A stretch of 64,000 bases of DNA from Parasphingopyxis marina (GTDB lineage Bacteria > Pseudomonadota > Alphaproteobacteria > Sphingomonadales > Sphingomonadaceae), in NCBI RefSeq assembly GCF_014237875.1, contig NZ_JACJVJ010000002.1, forward strand, positions 1 through 64,000. The letters run 5' to 3'. Position numbers and translations under genes: made by a program. Positions 15,975 through 25,770 of this stretch are shown in pieces. The notes below the pieces were generated by a model that saw only the letters and a list, made by a program, of their open reading frames with translations, made no database searches and was not told the DNA's origin. Position 1 is the stretch's first letter; the number at the start of each line of letters is the position of its first letter.

Positions 15975-18716
15975 ATGTTCGGCGGTATCGCCAAAGCAGT
16001 CTTCGGATCGAGCAACGATCGGTATATCAAGAAGCTCGACAAGATCGTTGCGCAGATCAACGCATTCGAAGACGAAATTCACGCCCTGAGCGACGAGCAG
16101 CTCAAGGCCCAGACCCCGAAACTGAAGCAACGGCTCGCGAGCGGTGAAACGCTCGACGACATCCTGCCCGAAGCTTTTGCAACGGTGCGCGAAGCGGCTC
16201 AGCGAACTCTCGGCCAGCGGCACTATGATGTGCAGATGCTGGGTGGTATCGTTCTGCATCGCGGCGAGATTGCGGAAATGATGACCGGCGAGGGCAAGAC
16301 TCTCGTCGCGACCCTGCCGGTCTATCTCAACGCGCTCGAGGAAAAGGGCGTCCATGTCGTTACCGTCAACGACTATCTCGCCCGCCGCGATGCCGACTGG
16401 ATGGGCCAGATTTATACGTTCCTCGGCATGAATTACGGTGTGATCGTGCCGAACCTGACCGAGGAAGAGCGCCGCGCAGCTTATGGTGCGGACATCACCT
16501 ACGGCACCAATAATGAATTCGGCTTCGATTATCTGCGCGACAATATGAAATATTCGCGCGCGCAGATGGTCCATCGGCCGTTCAACTTCGCGATCGTCGA
16601 TGAGGTGGACTCGATCCTGATCGACGAAGCGCGCACGCCGCTGATCATTTCCGGCCCGACCGAGGACAAGTCCACGCTGTATATGGGCGTCGATGCGGTC
16701 GTAAAGCAGCTCGTCGACGACGATTATGAACTGGACGAAAAGCAGCGCTCGGTCACGTTGACAGAAGACGGCACCGAGAAGGCCGAGCGGATGCTCGAGG
16801 ATTCGGGCCTGCTCGAAGGCGCCAATCTATATGACTATGAAAACACGCTTGTCGTCCATCATTTGAACCAGGCATTGCGCGCCAATGTGCTGCAGAAGCG
16901 CGACAAGGATTATCTGGTCAAGGACGGCGAGGTCATCATCATCGATGAATTCACCGGCCGCATGATGGAAGGGCGCCGCTGGTCCGACGGCCTTCACCAG
17001 GCCGTCGAGGCCAAGGAAGGCGTCGAGATCAAGCCGGAGAACCAGACGCTCGCCTCGATTACCTTCCAGAATTATTTCCGCATGTATCCGAAGCTTTCGG
17101 GCATGACCGGTACCGCGCTTACCGAAGCGCCCGAATTTTTCGACATCTACAAGATGAACGTGACCGTGATCCCGACCAACAAGCCGATTCAGCGGATCGA
17201 CGAGGTCGACGAGTTCTACAAGGACGAGCAGGACAAGTTCGCGGCGATCACCAAGGCGATCCGCGAAGCGAGCGAGAAGGGCCAGCCGGTTCTCGTCGGT
17301 ACGGTCTCGATCGAAAAATCCGAGCTGCTTTCGAGCTTCCTGACCAAGGAAAAGGTCGAGCACGCGATCCTCAACGCCCGGCAGCATGAAAGGGAGGCGC
17401 ATATCGTCGCCCAGGCCGGCCGCACCGGCGCCGTGACGATTGCGACCAACATGGCCGGTCGCGGCACCGACATTCAGCTTGGCGGCAATGTGGAATTCCG
17501 TATCGGCGATGAACTGGCGGATATGCCCGAGGGGCCCGAGCGGGAGGCCGCGATTGCGCGGATCACGAAGGAAGTCGCCGAGGAAAAGGAAAAGGTGAAG
17601 GCCGCGGGCGGGCTGTTCGTGCTCGCGACCGAACGCCATGAAAGCCGACGGATCGACAATCAGTTACGCGGCCGTTCGGGACGCCAGGGCGATCCCGGCC
17701 TTTCGCGTTTCTACCTGTCGCTTGACGACGATCTGCTGCGCATATTTGGCCCGCAGACGATGTTCGCGAAGATGGTCCGCTCGAACCTCGAAGAAGGCGA
17801 GGCGATTGTCAGCCCCTGGGTCGCCAAGGCGATCGAGACCGCTCAGAAGAAGGTCGAAGCGCGCAACTACGATATCCGCAAGCAGGTCGTCGAATATGAC
17901 GACGTGATGAACGATCAGCGCAAGGTAATCTACGAGCAGCGCGGCGACGTGATGGATGCCGACGAGATCAGCGACGTCATCGAAGATATGCGCGCCGAGA
18001 CGGTGAACGGCATCGTCGCCGACCATTGTCCGCATGGTACCTATCCCGAGCAATGGGACGTCGAGGCCCTGAAAGCCCGTGTCGACGAAGTACTCGGCCT
18101 CAATCCGCCGCTCGACGACTGGTTGAAGGAGGAAGAGGTCGATCCGGTCATCCTCGAAGAGCGCATCCAGGCGCTCGCCGACGAGCAGCTCGCGCAAAAA
18201 TCCAAGGATATTCCGCCCGAGGACTGGAAATCGATCGAGAAGAGCGTGCTTCTCCAGAATCTCGACATTCAATGGAAGGAGCATCTCGCGACGCTCGACG
18301 CGCTGCGCGCGGTCATCAACCTGCGCTCCTATGCGCAGAAAAAGCCGATCGACGAATATAAGCGCGAAGCCTTCTCGATGTTCCAGCAGATGCTGGTCAA
18401 TATCCGCGAGGAAGTGACACGGACGCTGGCCTTTGCCCGCTTCCAGCAAGCGCCGCCGCCGCCGCTGCCGGACCTGCCGGACTTCATCACGACTCATATC
18501 GATCCGTTCACGGGCGAGGATGACAGCGCCGATATCGATGCCGGCGACCTGGGGTTGGTCACGACCAAATTGCCGCCGCGCCAGTCCGGGATGCCGCGCC
18601 TTGACGAGATGCTCTCGGACAATCCCGACGAATGGCAGGGTCAGGTGAGCCGCAACTCGCCATGCCCGTGCGGTTCGGGCCGCAAGTTCAAACATTGCCA
18701 CGGGGCGCCGCAATAG
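15975..18716 (+). CDS. secA: Preprotein translocase ATPase SecA
   Basis: A 913-residue motor that pushes unfolded preproteins through SecYEG. Walker A is MTGEGKT (residues 103-109), with [16 protein letters not shown] and the [15 protein letters not shown] motif following. The C-terminal zinc site is complete (C897, C899, C908, H909 in [14 protein letters not shown]), which is the SecB/ribosome-binding tail. An AGGAA lies just before the ATG. The next gene begins 13 nt after the stop and is very probably co-transcribed. Confidence 0.98.
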
Positions 18717-18729
18717 GGCGGCCCCGCCA

Positions 18730-20499
18730 ATGACGTCGCCCGGCGATCCGCTCGTCCTTGCCGAGGACGCGCTGGCGCGCGGCGACAATCTCGAAGCCTA
18801 TGATATTGCCGTCTCGGCCCGCGAAGAGGGCATCGAAGCCCCGAGGCTGGACTATGTGGCGGCGCTAGCGCTCGCGCGCATGGACGATACCGAGATGGCG
18901 CTCGACTATTATGAGCGCACCGGACTTGGAGAGATTGACGACGACGATATTCTCGCCCTTTGGGGGCGGCTGAAAAAGGATCTCGCTGAAAACGCGTCGG
19001 GCGACGAGCAGGCGGTACTCTTTGCCGAGGCCAGCGCGGCCTATCTCGAACTCTACAAGACCAAGAAGAGCTATTATACCGGGATCAATGCGGCGACGAC
19101 GGCGCTGCTTGCCGGCGATACCGAAAACGCTTCGGCGCTCGCCAAGGACATTCTCGAGGATCCGGAAGTCGCCAAGCCCAAGGGCTTTTACGCGACGGCG
19201 ACGGCGGCCGAAGCCAATGTCCTGCTCGACAACGATATAGAGGCACGGCAATCGATTGCCGACGCGATCCGCTGGTCGGATGCCGGGGTCGGCTCGAAAG
19301 CCTCGACCTTCCGCCAGATGATGCTGATCGCGCGGATCGTTCCCGACAAGGAAGCCATCATCGCGCCGCTTCTCGACATGCTCCGGCCCTCGCCGGTGCT
19401 GGTCTATACCGGGCATATGTTCGTCGAGAATTCTGCGGCCGAGGCTGCGCTTTCGGTCCAGATCGACGAGGCGATCAAGGCGCTCAAGCCCGATACGGCC
19501 TATGGCGCGCTCGCTTGCGGATCGGACATCATGGTCGCCGAGGCGATTCTGAAACGCGGGCTGGAACTGCACCTCGTCTTCCCGTTCGAAATCGACGATT
19601 TCCTGGAACAGTCGGTGCTGCCCGGCGGTGAAAGCTGGATGCCACGCTTCCAGCATTGTCTCGACCGAGCGGCGCGCGTCAGCCTGGCGACCGACATGAA
19701 GTTCATCGGCGATCCCAATATGTTCAGCTATGGATCGGCGGTCGCGATGGGGCTCGCCCGGATGCGCGCCAATCATCTGCGCACCGATGCGATCCAGCTG
19801 GCGATCGTCAAGCCCGGCGATGCCGCCAAGGCTGCCGGTACCAGCAGCGACGTCGCCTTTTGGCAAAATCTTGGTCATGAAAGCCATGTCATCGACCCGG
19901 GCGACATCAACCGCGATCTGGATTGGCCGCCCAAGATCGAGATGCCCGAAGGTGTCACCCGCGTCGCCCATTCGATGATCTTCGCCGATTTTGCTGGCTT
20001 TTCGCGCCTGTCGGAGGCTGTGCTGCCGGTGTTCGTGAACGAGATACTCGGTCGTACCGGCACGCTGTTGGACGAGTTCGAAGACGAAGTGCTGTATCGC
20101 AACAGCTGGGGCGACGCGCTTTATGCGGTCATCGCTTCACCGACCGATGCCGCGGAGATCGTCCTGCAACTCCAGGCCCGGCTATCGAAAATGCCCGAAC
20201 AGCTGCTCGATTGTGCGGCCAATTGCGGGATGCGGATCGGCGTTCATCACGGGCCGATCTATCGCGGTTTCGATGCGGTCATCCGCAAGCCCTCCTTTTT
20301 CGGGACCGAAGTGACGCGCACCGCGCGGATCGAGCCGGTAACTCCGACCGGGGAAGTCTATGCGACCGAAGCCTTCGCGGCGATCCTGGCGCTGGAGCAG
20401 GAGCAGCGGTTCGGCACGCACTATGTCGGTAAGGTCCAGCTCGCAAAGAATTACGGGCAGCTGGCGATGTACAAGCTGAGCCGGCTTCCGCTGGGCTGA
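18730..20499 (+). CDS. TPR - SLOG-like - class III cyclase homology protein
   Basis: A 589-residue cytoplasmic protein in three parts. Residues 1-215 are an alpha-helical TPR-like region of the TRAFs-binding/DUF4071 type. Residues about 221-370 look like a SLOG/Rossmann nucleotide-binding domain (VLVYTGHMF, then GALACGSDIMVAEAI and LVFPFE). Residues about 412-585 are a class III nucleotide cyclase homology domain. Both metal aspartates are present (Asp420 in FADFAGFS, Asp462 in SWGDAL). The transition-state Asn is Thr529 in VTRTAR, while the Arg (533) is kept, so catalytic activity is uncertain. The gene starts 13 nt after secA. SLOG domains in other systems sense or process nucleotide-derived ligands, so a ligand-gated cyclic nucleotide signaller is a reasonable inference, not shown. 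Confidence 0.75.
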   Translation: MTSPGDPLVLAEDALARGDNLEAYDIAVSAREEGIEAPRLDYVAALALARMDDTEMALDYYERTGLGEIDDDDILALWGRLKKDLAENASGDEQAVLFAEASAAYLELYKTKKSYYTGINAATTALLAGDTENASALAKDILEDPEVAKPKGFYATATAAEANVLLDNDIEARQSIADAIRWSDAGVGSKASTFRQMMLIARIVPDKEAIIAPLLDMLRPSPVLVYTGHMFVENSAAEAALSVQIDEAIKALKPDTAYGALACGSDIMVAEAILKRGLELHLVFPFEIDDFLEQSVLPGGESWMPRFQHCLDRAARVSLATDMKFIGDPNMFSYGSAVAMGLARMRANHLRTDAIQLAIVKPGDAAKAAGTSSDVAFWQNLGHESHVIDPGDINRDLDWPPKIEMPEGVTRVAHSMIFADFAGFSRLSEAVLPVFVNEILGRTGTLLDEFEDEVLYRNSWGDALYAVIASPTDAAEIVLQLQARLSKMPEQLLDCAANCGMRIGVHHGPIYRGFDAVIRKPSFFGTEVTRTARIEPVTPTGEVYATEAFAAILALEQEQRFGTHYVGKVQLAKNYGQLAMYKLSRLPLG

Positions 20500-20554
20500 G
20501 GAAGACGCGGCCGGCGGCTATCTATTGGGCGGACGAATACGGCTCCGCTGCCGA

Positions 20555-21538
20555 TCATAGTGAGATGTCGTCCAGCAATGCGCGCGGCATTCGCCGGTGC
20601 ATCGGCCGCGTCAGGTTTCCCGAGAGCAAATCATATCCGCTGCCCAGATCGACGGCGACACCGCCATTTTCCTTGATCCAGTGGCAATAGAATTCGGCCC
20701 ATACACCCGCGCCTATCAGGTGCAGACAGCCCTGGGCCTGCTCCGGCAATTGGGCGCGCACGTCGTCAAGAAACACCGGGTGGGGACGGTCATCCCGGCC
20801 GTGTCGGCCGACCGTGCCGACGGGGATATGGGTTATCCTGAGCGCCGGGTGCCGGGCTTGCAGCTTCGCCACCAGATCTGCCCGGCTGGTGATGCATATC
20901 AGGTGTTCGGTGGCTGAAAACAACATGTCGAGCCGCTGTGCCAGGCCGAAATAGAAATGGGCCGGCGCCAACAGCTTGGAATCCAGCGCGCCGCTCTCGG
21001 CCTGGCGGATCAGAAAATCGACGCCGCGAATATGGCCGGTGACCCCTCGATAGTTTTTCCTGAAATCTTCGACGACGGTTTCGAGGTTCAATTCCGTGGT
21101 CCGCCGGGGCCGCCAGATCCCCAGCACGCCCACCACGTCCGCCGATGCGATCGCGGCGTTCATCAGCGCATTCAGTTTGTCCAGCCACGCCTCGGTTGGA
21201 GAGAAGGAATCCTTCCGGTTGCCGATGCTGGCGGCTAGGGCGTGACGATTGAGGCTCGGGGTTTTGCGATAATATTTGTAACCGGCGATATTGGCCTCGC
21301 CGTCGCCGATCCGGATCGCCGAAAAGGGTTTTCCCCCGCGCAGCGCCTCCACGATCCGCGTGGCCAGGGCAGCGCCGAACGGATCGTCTATAAAGGGCAG
21401 GCCACAGTGGCGGTATCGGCGCCTTACTTGCTCCGGGTCCCAGATTTGCGGATTCCGGCGTATGAATTCGGCGAATGTTTCGACGTCTTCTTCGGTTACC
21501 GACGATCGGGGATAGGGCGACTCGGAATCGCTAAACAT
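20555..21538 (-). CDS. GT-D fold glycosyltransferase-like protein
   Basis: A 327-residue protein resembling GT-D-fold glycosyltransferases (SP_1767-like). The N-terminal half carries a SAIRIGDGEANI segment comparable to the RxGDGE motif of that fold. The C-terminal half has LHLIGAGVWAEFYCHWIK followed by GGVAVDLGSGYD, the Rossmann-like core of the family. No signal peptide or membrane helix is apparent. It stands alone between the cyclase gene (convergent) and tRNA-Asn (upstream, same strand), with no other polysaccharide genes beside it, so its acceptor is unknown. Confidence 0.6.
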   Translation of the reverse strand: MFSDSESPYPRSSVTEEDVETFAEFIRRNPQIWDPEQVRRRYRHCGLPFIDDPFGAALATRIVEALRGGKPFSAIRIGDGEANIAGYKYYRKTPSLNRHALAASIGNRKDSFSPTEAWLDKLNALMNAAIASADVVGVLGIWRPRRTTELNLETVVEDFRKNYRGVTGHIRGVDFLIRQAESGALDSKLLAPAHFYFGLAQRLDMLFSATEHLICITSRADLVAKLQARHPALRITHIPVGTVGRHGRDDRPHPVFLDDVRAQLPEQAQGCLHLIGAGVWAEFYCHWIKENGGVAVDLGSGYDLLSGNLTRPMHRRMPRALLDDISL

Positions 21539-21808: not shown

Positions 21809-22585
21809 TCAGACGATGAATTGTTCGCGGGCTATTCGCTCGTCCAGGGCGAAATCGGGGTCGAACATCAGCGAAAGCGTGAGGCTGGTGTCGAGATGCA
21901 CTTCGACGGTCGAAACCTCGCGAACTTCGCGCTGATCGGCCACCGCGCTGACGGGCCGTTTGACCGGTTCCAGAACGCGGAACCCGATGCGCGTCGTATC
22001 GGGCAATATCGCGCCGCGCCAGCGCCGCGGGCGGAACGGGCTGATCGGGGTCAGCGCGAGCATATTGGACCCCATTGGCAGGATCGGGCCCTGGGCGGAA
22101 AGATTATAGGCGGTGGACCCCGCCGGTGTGGCGACGAGGACGCCGTCGCAGACAAGTTCCTCGATCACGACGCGGCCGTCGGCCGTCACTTCGAGCTTGG
22201 CCGTCTGGCGGGTTTCCCTCAGCAGCGACACCTCGTTGATCGCGGCGCTGGAAATGGTTTCGCCGTCGACGGTAACCGCCTCCATGCGCAACGGGGTGAC
22301 GGTGAAAGTTTTCGCCTTTTCCACCCGCTGGTCGAGCGTATCGGGCTTCCACTCGTTCATCAGAAAGCCGACGGTGCCGAGATTCATGCCGAAAACGGGC
22401 ACGATGCGCCGGTCGGTGAGCATCTGGTGCAGGGTCTGGAGCATGAAACCGTCTCCGCCGAGCGCGATGATGCCTTCCGCCTCGTCCAGCTCCGCGAAAT
22501 CGTGTCGACGGCGCAGCACGGTGGCCGCATCCTGCGCGGAATCGGTCGGCGAGGCGACGAGCGCGAACTTTCCGTCGATCGTCAT
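21809..22585 (-). CDS. nadK: NAD kinase
   Basis: A 258-residue cytoplasmic kinase that makes NADP from NAD and ATP or polyphosphate. The catalytic GGDG motif is at residues 43-46 in IALGGDGFMLQ. The substrate loop MNLGTVGFL and the later PAGSTAYNLSAQGPI motif, both diagnostic of the family, are intact. The ATG at 22585 overlaps the moaA stop as ATGA, so the two are translationally coupled. The length is typical of compact alphaproteobacterial NadK. Confidence 0.95.
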   Translation of the reverse strand: MTIDGKFALVASPTDSAQDAATVLRRRHDFAELDEAEGIIALGGDGFMLQTLHQMLTDRRIVPVFGMNLGTVGFLMNEWKPDTLDQRVEKAKTFTVTPLRMEAVTVDGETISSAAINEVSLLRETRQTAKLEVTADGRVVIEELVCDGVLVATPAGSTAYNLSAQGPILPMGSNMLALTPISPFRPRRWRGAILPDTTRIGFRVLEPVKRPVSAVADQREVREVSTVEVHLDTSLTLSLMFDPDFALDERIAREQFIV

Positions 22586-23703: not shown

Positions 23704-25770
23704 GTGCGACCTTCAGGAGCAGAGGCCATTTCGGACTTCACGCCGTTGACCGCCAACCCGCTTTTCCTGCTGTCCTTCCGACAGCGCGACGAGCTGGCGT
23801 CGGCCGTGGAGCGCGCCGGCTGGACTCCGATCGCCGCACGGCGGATCGACAAGGCGGAGCGGCGGTTCATCTTTTCCGGCGCGAAAATCGCCGTCGTCGA
23901 TGCGCGCGGCGCATTCGAGGACGGGATAACGGCGATCCGCACGCTCGCTGAATCGATAGAGGCTAATGCCGCCGCGCTCCTTGCCTTGATCTCCAAAAAG
24001 GACGTGACCCGGGTCGACGAGATACTGGCAGCCGGCGCAACTCATTATCTGGCCAGCCCCTTTGGCGAGCAGGAGCTCGGCCAGGCGCTACGCTTCGCGG
24101 ATCGCTATACGGTCCGCCTCGGCGGGCGGTTCCAGAATGATGCGATCTCCGAACCTGACACGCCCGATTATGGCTGGCAGCTCGACCGCCTGTCGGAAGC
24201 GGTGGTCCTGACGCCCGCTCTCGCCGGCCAATTGTCTATCGGCCAGGACGCGCTTTCCGCGCGCTGGCAGGATTTCGTCGCGTTGCTGGGCGATGCGGCG
24301 CGGCCCGAAGCGGAACGCGCGCTGGAGCGTCTCGCAGCGAGCGGCGAACCGACGGCCTTTGCTCATGATTTTCCCGGGCGGGAGGGCGAACGGATGATCC
24401 ATCATCTGAGTTCGGCCGGCGCCGATGGCGAGGTGACGGCCTGGGTCGAATTGCCGGACGAAGATGCCGATACACGCCCGGTCCGCAACCGGGACTTCTT
24501 AACCGGGCTCGGCGATGTTCATCGAGCCTATCACTGGATCGACGAGCAGCTGCGCACCGAAGATACGCCTGAACCGAAACTGGCATTGCTTCTCGTCTCG
24601 CTCCATCGGTTCGACATGGTCAACGCGGCCTATGGCACCGCGGCCGGCGATGCGGCGCTGCAGGGGATGGCGCGTCGTATCGAACGGCTCGTTTTCGCGA
24701 TGCGCGAACGCAAGAAGATGGCGGCGCGGCTTGCCGGGGCCGAGTTTGCCATCGGCCTGGCGCCCGGCGTCTCGCTCGACGAGGCGGAGTTTTTTGCGCA
24801 GCAATTGGCGGCGGTGATCGAGCAGCCTTTTGTTTCAAACGGCGAGGTTATCCAGCTCAAGATGCGCTGCGGGATTGTCACCGGCGGCGCGGACGACGGC
24901 GATGCCGCCGCCGTAATGCGGCGCGCGAGCGCGGCGCTCGCCGAGGCGCGCGAACTCGATGGCCAGGCAATCCGCGTTTTCGGCGACGCCGAGGAAGGCG
25001 AGGCGACCCGGGCTTCGCGGCTCGAGATCGATCTTCGCCTCGCGCTTAATCGCGACGAGATCGATATCGTCTTCCAGCCTCAGGTTTCGGTGACGACGGG
25101 AACGATCGTCGGCGTCGAGGCGCTGGCGCGCTGGCGGCACCCTCTATTCGGCGAGTTGGGCGCGGAGGTGCTGTTCGCCGCGGCGGAGCGCTCCGACTAT
25201 CTGACCGAGCTTTCGGCCCATGTGCAGCGCAAGGCGCTCACCATGGCGACATCGTGGGGCGGCGCGCTTACCGGGCTTCGGTTGTCGGTCAACGTGACCG
25301 CCGCCGACATGGCCGCTTCCGATTTCGTCGAGCGCTTCGTGGCGATGGTCGGCGAGACGGGGTTCGACGGCGCCCGGCTGACGCTGGAGGTAACGGAAAG
25401 CGGATTGATCGCCGATCTCGGCAGTGCGGCCGAACGCCTGGCGGACCTGCGCGCCCAAGGCTTCCGCGTCGCCATCGACGATTTCGGCACCGGCTATTCG
25501 AGCCTCGCCTATCTCAAATTCCTTCCGCTCGACTATCTCAAACTCGATCGCCGGCTGAGCCAGGATATTGCCGGCAGCAAGCGCGACCGGGTCGTTGTCA
25601 GCGGCGTGATCGATATGGCGCGTTCGCTCGGCCTTTCGGTCATTGCCGAAGGCGTCGAGACGGAGGAGCAGCTGGCGCGTCTCGCCGAACAGGGATGCGA
25701 GCTATATCAGGGTTTTCTCTGCTCGCCGCCGGTTGCCTTCGAAGATCTGGCCGGTTTGGTGGACGCTTAG
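23704..25770 (+). CDS. c-di-GMP phosphodiesterase: receiver-like, degenerate GGDEF, EAL
   Basis: A 688-residue signalling protein. Residues 1-130 resemble a degenerate receiver domain, followed by a PAS-like linker. A GGDEF domain begins at RDFLTGLGD but its active site reads AGAEF (residues 344-348), so cyclase activity is not expected. The EAL domain looks complete: Glu472 in VEALARW, VTES, DDFGTGYSS (Asp592, Asp593), LKLDR and IAEGVETEEQ. It should therefore degrade c-di-GMP, with the dead GGDEF perhaps binding GTP as a regulator. The GTG at 23704 lacks a ribosome-binding site. An AGGAG at 23715-23719 sits 8 nt before an in-frame ATT at 23728, which may be the true start. Its stop overlaps the convergent protease-like gene. 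Confidence 0.88.
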   Translation: MRPSGAEAISDFTPLTANPLFLLSFRQRDELASAVERAGWTPIAARRIDKAERRFIFSGAKIAVVDARGAFEDGITAIRTLAESIEANAAALLALISKKDVTRVDEILAAGATHYLASPFGEQELGQALRFADRYTVRLGGRFQNDAISEPDTPDYGWQLDRLSEAVVLTPALAGQLSIGQDALSARWQDFVALLGDAARPEAERALERLAASGEPTAFAHDFPGREGERMIHHLSSAGADGEVTAWVELPDEDADTRPVRNRDFLTGLGDVHRAYHWIDEQLRTEDTPEPKLALLLVSLHRFDMVNAAYGTAAGDAALQGMARRIERLVFAMRERKKMAARLAGAEFAIGLAPGVSLDEAEFFAQQLAAVIEQPFVSNGEVIQLKMRCGIVTGGADDGDAAAVMRRASAALAEARELDGQAIRVFGDAEEGEATRASRLEIDLRLALNRDEIDIVFQPQVSVTTGTIVGVEALARWRHPLFGELGAEVLFAAAERSDYLTELSAHVQRKALTMATSWGGALTGLRLSVNVTAADMAASDFVERFVAMVGETGFDGARLTLEVTESGLIADLGSAAERLADLRAQGFRVAIDDFGTGYSSLAYLKFLPLDYLKLDRRLSQDIAGSKRDRVVVSGVIDMARSLGLSVIAEGVETEEQLARLAEQGCELYQGFLCSPPVAFEDLAGLVDA

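Follow-up and report, generated by a model that had tools for sequence, protein, structure and literature searches.

The window, by which we mean the whole stretch of 64,000 nucleotides of Parasphingopyxis marina DNA that was analysed, contains on its forward strand a gene for a three-part protein (here called the cyclase gene), which begins just after secA and is followed at some distance by the NAD kinase gene nadK. The main features at this locus are as follows.

15975-18716 (+): secA, with its stop codon 13 nt before the ATG of the cyclase gene
18730-20499 (+): TPR-S, SLOG, and class III cyclase protein; an open reading frame of 589 aa with an ATG start
18748-19338 (+): helical TPR / TPR-S region, residues about 7-203; Pfam PF20308 and helices in the model
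19387-19908 (+): SLOG domain, YpsA-like, residues about 220-393; predicted fold
19951-20490 (+): class III nucleotide cyclase domain, residues about 408-587; PF00211 and a fold match to CyaB
21809-22585 (-): NAD kinase gene nadK; PF20143 and PF01513, both above cut-off

In Pfam, the 589-aa protein matched TPR-S (PF20308) at residues 32-123 with 43.2 bits against a cut-off of 27.6, and Guanylate_cyc (PF00211) at residues 415-583 with 47.6 bits against a cut-off of 21.9, and its full-length predicted structure gave a mean pLDDT of 95.9 and a pTM of 0.94. Relatives were sought in one tblastn scan at E 1e-3, with A[CA]G[AS]DIx[IV]AE and N[ST]WGD[AG][LI][YF][AL] as the scan patterns, and this yielded at least 403 candidate stretches, other cyclases possibly among them, the best 80 of which make up our locus sample. 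Given these relatives and the purifying selection found within the genus, the open reading frame is more than a product of chance; it is confirmed as real, with TPR-S, SLOG, and class III cyclase in one protein. A preliminary description had already joined a TPR region, a SLOG domain, and a class III cyclase in this protein, with which both Pfam and the predicted fold agree, and had set the gene 13 nt after secA, which is exactly where it lies. Its proposal of a possible ligand-gated second-messenger protein was also, as a possibility, rightly made. The TRAFs-binding region that it named is sub-threshold, MAP3K_TRAF_bd (PF13281) in the window protein falling just under its Pfam cut-off (23 against 24.1 bits).

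For residues 200-410 of the window protein, Pfam returned no match at E 1. Folded alone from an alignment of 78 sequences, this region gave a model with a mean pLDDT of 95.5, and the top match to this model by VIA-align was YpsA (2nx2; Z 17.5, rmsd 2.5, 154 of 211 residues aligned), followed by DprA (Z 11.8), ShosA (Z 11.2), LOG (Z about 9.7), and TRPM2 (Z about 9). By Foldseek, the top match was DprA (7.6e-05, with a modest TM-score of 0.40); YpsA is absent among the 50 Foldseek rows listed and yet comes first by VIA-align, and so this absence excludes nothing. In a comparison of sequence profiles, the best PDB match of the region, a weak one at E 1.5, was LOG (5zbj/5zbk). From these fold and profile matches, the SLOG domain guessed in the preliminary description, for which a fold check on residues 221-370 had been suggested, is correct, and its predicted fold is of the YpsA type. 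LOG enzymes have the catalytic motif PGGxGTxxE, which is not in the window translation, where PGG occurs only as PGGESW at residues 298-303 and without GTxxE. Sensors of cADPR occur in the YpsA-like SLOG clade, as stated in sections of PMC9503650.

The fold of the cyclase domain matched CyaB (3r5g; Z 21.6, rmsd 2.6, 176 aligned), and also soluble guanylate cyclase and mycobacterial cyclases. Its active site was read from an alignment of 81 sequences, 80 of which have the cyclase part, where positions 420, 458, 462, 522, 529, and 533 are given the names of the corresponding canonical cyclase positions.

19987-19989 (+): Asp420, metal position 1; Asp in 80/80 rows
20101-20103 (+): Asn458, substrate-selecting Lys position; Asn in 80/80 rows, partly built in by the scan pattern
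20113-20115 (+): Asp462, metal position 2; Asp in 80/80 rows, partly built in by the scan pattern
20314-20316 (+): Thr529, transition-state Asn position; S 47, T 16, N 11, and A 6 in 80 rows
20326-20328 (+): Arg533, transition-state Arg position; Arg in 80/80 rows
20446-20448 (+): Lys573, phosphate-binding Lys position; Lys in 80/80 rows

The scan patterns (N[ST]WGD and so on) partly build in the invariance of Asn458, Trp460, Gly461, and Asp462, and of Gly264 and Asp266 in the SLOG part. Also invariant in the 80 cyclase rows are Arg502, His506, and Glu535, with Asp515 being Asp in 79 and Glu in one, and the canonical Asp/Thr position 522 holds T in 35, N in 24, L in 9, S in 5, A in 4, and other residues in 3 of these rows, the window protein having Ser522. 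Among 12 further cyclase-domain sequences, several of which are copies of other records, Lys replaces Arg533 in L014 and Val is found at position 529 in L011. A stand-alone cyclase of 226 aa with the same RNSWGD motif is encoded at L018:1441-2118 (+), in an open frame without TPR-S or SLOG.

The class III features kept in the window protein are the cyclase homology domain, the metal pair of Asp420 and Asp462, the transition-state Arg533, and the phosphate-binding Lys573. The preliminary description had both metal Asp residues as kept, and here the alignment bears it out. Absent from the window protein are the canonical substrate Lys, the Asp/Thr, and the transition-state Asn, their places being taken by Asn458, Ser522, and Thr529. 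That Thr stands at the transition-state Asn position had likewise been seen before, but this is no special loss, with Thr in 16 and Ser in 47 of the 80 rows. Because Ser, Thr, Asn, and Ala all occur at position 529 in relatives, Thr529 lies within the range of the family and is not a lesion, and its role as a special inactivating change is rejected. Judging from the alignment, the altered base pocket (Asn458) is more telling than Thr529, and we consider the cyclase domain rather probably active as a catalyst.

Within Parasphingopyxis, the cyclase gene is present in eight of ten genomes (G000-G009), and secA adjoins it in all eight (L001-L008). One genus genome (G003) gave no match to the cyclase gene, and another (G006, 66% complete) has only a fragment of a family member (L022), which is 35% identical to the window protein and ends at the contig end, before the cyclase part. 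In the flanks fetched for the locus sample (the best 80 of at least 403), which reach up to 6 kb and are in some cases shortened by contig ends, secA was found at 5 of the 80 loci, these being four from Parasphingopyxis and L045 (Sphingomonadaceae), which clusters with the Parasphingopyxis loci in a quick tree, and at none of the 75 loci sampled outside the genus. Within the fetched flanks, the secA linkage is that of one genus only, Parasphingopyxis. A survey for conserved linkage, as the preliminary description had proposed, therefore comes out genus-only, and coupling to secA as a conserved feature is rejected on the fetched flanks of the 75 outside loci and on the gap between secA and nadK elsewhere.

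In the genus, the cyclase gene lies between secA and nadK, the latter being 3' of it in the window and in L041-L044. Between the cyclase gene and nadK, the window has a GT-D-like gene at 20555-21538 (-); in L041-L044, the cyclase gene is followed directly, among the called genes, by nadK instead of the GT-D-like gene. A few genes downstream in the window, at 23704-25770 (+), is another nucleotide-signalling gene, encoding a GGDEF-EAL protein. At 6 of 22 loci from other genera, nadK is located within 1.5 kb 3' of secA and the cyclase gene is not between them, which suggests that the gene was relocated into the secA-nadK gap, and the simplest reading is that it came to lie there in the ancestor of the genus. 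The cyclase gene may well be co-transcribed with secA. A scan for promoter-like sites from 18400 to 20700, limited to sigma-70, found none, though with 0.6 expected in shuffles this says little.

The recurrent neighbour of the family in relatives is a TIR gene, which the preliminary description had overlooked. TIR-like neighbours were first noticed by neighbour clustering and inspection, and all 20 of those chosen (TIR-like by look or by a match to a TIR profile) score above the Pfam TIR_2 cut-off, with several having extra domains (FHA, SH3-YARHG, LprI, WD40, and TPR). From an even draw of 296 Sphingomonadales genomes, 64 have a family member at E 1e-20, giving 65 places once two rows of one genome were merged. 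Here, a Pfam TIR_2 search of the 64 genomes placed TIR_2 within 4 kb of at least 46 of the 65 places, at least 44 of them with both genes on the same strand (TIR upstream at 38 and downstream at 6); at the other 2, TIR is downstream on the opposite strand. By chance, about 0.52 of the 65 places would be expected to have a TIR within 4 kb, according to an analytic calculation that uses TIR counts, genome sizes, and one place per genome. The other 19 places had no TIR_2 within 4 kb among the matches listed.

In the fetched flanks of the locus sample (the best 80 of at least 403), a TIR match was found at 53 of the 80 loci, comprising none of the 5 genus loci and 53 of the 75 others; the fetched flanks of the remaining 22 loci outside the genus, some of them short, had no TIR. 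The TIR profiles for this count were built from 10 of the neighbours, and the Pfam-based count at 65 places is independent of them. TIR-linked loci include L085 (Acidimicrobiaceae), L097 (Arenimonas), L113 (Nevskiaceae), and L117 (Hyphomicrobiales), and all four orientations of the TIR and cyclase genes are found among the 80 loci. In 18 same-strand pairs, the TIR gene is upstream at a distance of under 400 nt, and in 13 of these an in-frame start codon falls inside its final 20 nt, which would point to translational coupling between the TIR and cyclase genes if those predicted starts are used. A pattern for the TIR Glu fitted 48 of 56 segments, in part at incorrect positions, and is given no weight here. 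The pairing is common and not universal, since a distant relative on a Caballeronia plasmid (L162:4523-5914, +) is preceded by a lipoprotein-like gene without a Pfam match, with a 4-nt overlap. For the family, both the SLOG fold and the TIR pairing are close to certain.

Which half of the protein goes with the TIR gene can be gauged from where the family match ends. Of the 65 places, 27 have a profile match that ends short of the cyclase, and at least 20 of these are TIR-linked; of the 38 places where it reaches the cyclase, at least 26 are. A match ending before the cyclase was taken as a sign of decay, and seven such proteins, five of them among the 65 places, were inspected by residue. These (L015-L017, L019-L021, and L025) are TPR-S and SLOG proteins with a decayed cyclase domain, and form one group in the quick tree, which was made from 200 SLOG columns and 94 rows, six rows being left out as copies of other records. 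They keep the SLOG residues Gly228, Gly259, Gly264, Asp266, Pro285, Trp303, and Gly341; Asp462 is lost in all seven and Arg533 in six, with Asp420 aligning in four. At the other end of the protein, the match starts at residue 207 or later in 11 of the 80 loci, whose open frames span 366-470 aa and look to be without TPR-S, though one of these (L120) is cut by the contig end. By these alignments, the constant part of the family is the SLOG domain, and because the linkage holds at short-match and full-match places alike, it is apparently the sensor half that goes with TIR. A constant SLOG would fit a domain that, like the one in Thoeris, receives a signal made by TIR, and would fit less well with a Pycsar-like direction.

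Although no TIR gene is adjacent to it, the window gene is under purifying selection in all parts. In simple pairwise estimates, several of them from pairs with dS above 1, omega in the closest genus pair (L041 and L044) is 0.051 for TPR, 0.137 for SLOG, and 0.021 for the cyclase, and it is 0.12-0.25 in two pairs with the window gene, for which dS is near or above 1. The genome of the window has seven TIR_2 matches, all away from the cyclase gene and the nearest on the contig being 1.06 Mb off, and in the two genus genomes of the draw (G000 and G002) there is no TIR_2 within 390 kb among the matches listed, the nearest in G002 lying at 390 kb. One of these TIR proteins, L125 (G000:C2:1081015-1082031, +; outside the window), shares 41% identity along most of its length with the TIR neighbours of L047 (over 361 aa) and L083 (over 357 aa), and has an LprI-like tail that is sub-threshold. 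It is the best candidate in this genome for a possible distant partner, but is not kept across the genus, with a relative at 56-63% in only three of the other nine genus genomes. Two TIR_2 genes of the FISHHSSQ type lie near each other on one strand of this genome, at L123 and L124 (G000:C1:480361-480708 and 479050-479403, -).

Our best explanation is a cyclase that is fed by TIR and gated by SLOG, to which we would give an even chance, its ligand, direction, and product being what we infer. According to this, the TIR enzyme would convert NAD+ to a messenger (a cADPR isomer or an ADPR derivative), the SLOG domain, with TPR-S, would bind this TIR-made messenger, and the bound SLOG would switch on the cyclase domain to give a cyclic nucleotide, a second messenger set off by the first. 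In Parasphingopyxis, where the gene is away from any TIR gene, the messenger would have to come from a TIR encoded elsewhere, or another NAD-derived ligand would have to serve. That the SLOG ligand is NAD-derived seems to us quite likely. More tentative, and falling somewhat short of an even chance, is a fuller account in which the widespread family, TIR-linked at most of the places covered, would be a two-messenger relay, its altered-pocket cyclase, gated through SLOG by the NAD-derived signal, may make a non-standard cyclic nucleotide, and Parasphingopyxis would have separated the receiver from its TIR gene and coupled its expression to that of secA.

A Pycsar-like direction would have the cyclase as the alarm, with its cyclic nucleotide activating the TIR protein as the effector. 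In Pycsar, the cyclase PycC goes together with a TIR or membrane effector, and the effector has a cyclic-nucleotide-binding part. No such domain was listed in the 20 TIR neighbours (Pfam, E 0.01 / 0.001, with 25 of 46 families listed for L085), where a divergent one could escape. In favour of this direction, one of 68 family members matches the PADLOC PycC model (3.7e-05), the substrate-Lys position is altered in the family, and TIR proteins that are paired with nucleotide cyclases and activated by cyclic UMP are known from Pycsar (sections of PMC10952713). However, the window protein matches no PADLOC model at E 5, TIR linkage persists without a cyclase match at at least 20 of the 27 places, and the SLOG sensor would be left unexplained; altogether, we hold the cyclase as the alarm to be unlikely.

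We also doubt that the cyclase domain is a non-catalytic module for nucleotide binding or dimerisation, with the protein acting as a scaffold for TIR. In favour of such a module, Asn occupies the substrate-Lys position in every one of the 80 rows, the transition-state Asn is replaced in 69 of the 80, and seven related proteins all lack Asp462 and most other catalytic residues. Against it, none of the 80 rows departs from the metal Asp pair, Arg533, or Lys573, and in the closest genus pair omega is lowest for the cyclase (0.021). Most improbable is a secretion-stress sensor functionally coupled to SecA, for which the position of the gene speaks (same strand, 13 nt after secA, and adjoining it in 8 of 8 genus loci), but which sits poorly with the lack of secA in the fetched flanks of all 75 loci outside the genus and with the 6 of 22 other-genus loci in which nadK is 3' of secA without this gene, which looks like relocation.

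If the TIR-fed, SLOG-gated cyclase is true, then the receiver, being a nucleotide cyclase, would form an amplifying relay that leads from one class of messenger to another. The TIR pairing makes such a relay directly testable in relatives, for instance Novosphingobium and Phenylobacterium, and the TIR-less Parasphingopyxis would be a natural case of an uncoupled receiver. As for its purpose, a general stress relay is as compatible as immunity. There was no family match among 50,697 phage records, and in IMG/VR viral contigs 26 stretches matched the pattern, with none being confirmed. From 72,556 plasmid records, six match, and in two the match spans at least 80% of the query; the surroundings of plasmid matches H1 and H3 were inspected, H3 being without annotation there. 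In a look for defence islands, 97 of 164 neighbour ORFs, from 20 of 22 TIR-linked loci, were scanned, and 54 PADLOC families were matched at E 1e-10, of which 25 are listed, each matched by 2 or 3 of the 97 ORFs (mads, PD-T4-6, C3a189, and MkoA). No clear defence island was seen among these 97 ORFs and 25 of the 54 families, in an uncontrolled look that is weak either way. By eye, the neighbours of family members look like housekeeping genes.

TPR-S, which Burroughs and Aravind are said to have described in 2020 as a TPR scaffold predicted to recognise NAD+-derived signals, provides one likeness to known proteins, the PF20308 match of the window protein being above cut-off. With YpsA, DprA, and LOG, the SLOG of the family has the same fold, but it is fused to a cyclase and is without the LOG motif. 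Against PADLOC-DB 2023, 67 of 68 members match no model at E 0.001. In the 51 PDB sequences that match the cyclase profile at E 0.01, the name PycC does not appear, an absence that excludes nothing. The family resembles Pycsar (PycC cyclase with a TIR or membrane effector) in that a nucleotide cyclase gene lies beside a TIR gene (sections of PMC10952713), and differs from it in that SLOG and TPR-S are fused to the cyclase. In the literature searched, including sections of PMC7159879, PMC8195603, PMC9503650, PMC11204291, and PMC10952713, we found no description of the TPR-S, SLOG, and cyclase form, though work by Burroughs, Aravind, and colleagues may mention it.

As described in sections of PMC11204291, TIR enzymes send NAD-derived messengers to SLOG or macro-domain effectors, which act by NAD depletion or on membranes, and in Thoeris the TIR-made 3'cADPR binds and gates the SLOG of ThsA. 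The likeness to Thoeris (ThsB TIR with ThsA SIR2-SLOG) is that a TIR gene is paired with a SLOG-containing protein in relatives, and the differences are that the family has a cyclase for SIR2, that TPR-S is added, and that the SLOG is mid-protein. The window copy itself has no adjacent TIR gene and no SIR2 match in Pfam. The best reading would be a logic of the Thoeris kind, in which a cyclase stands where Sir2 would be, rather than membership in Thoeris.
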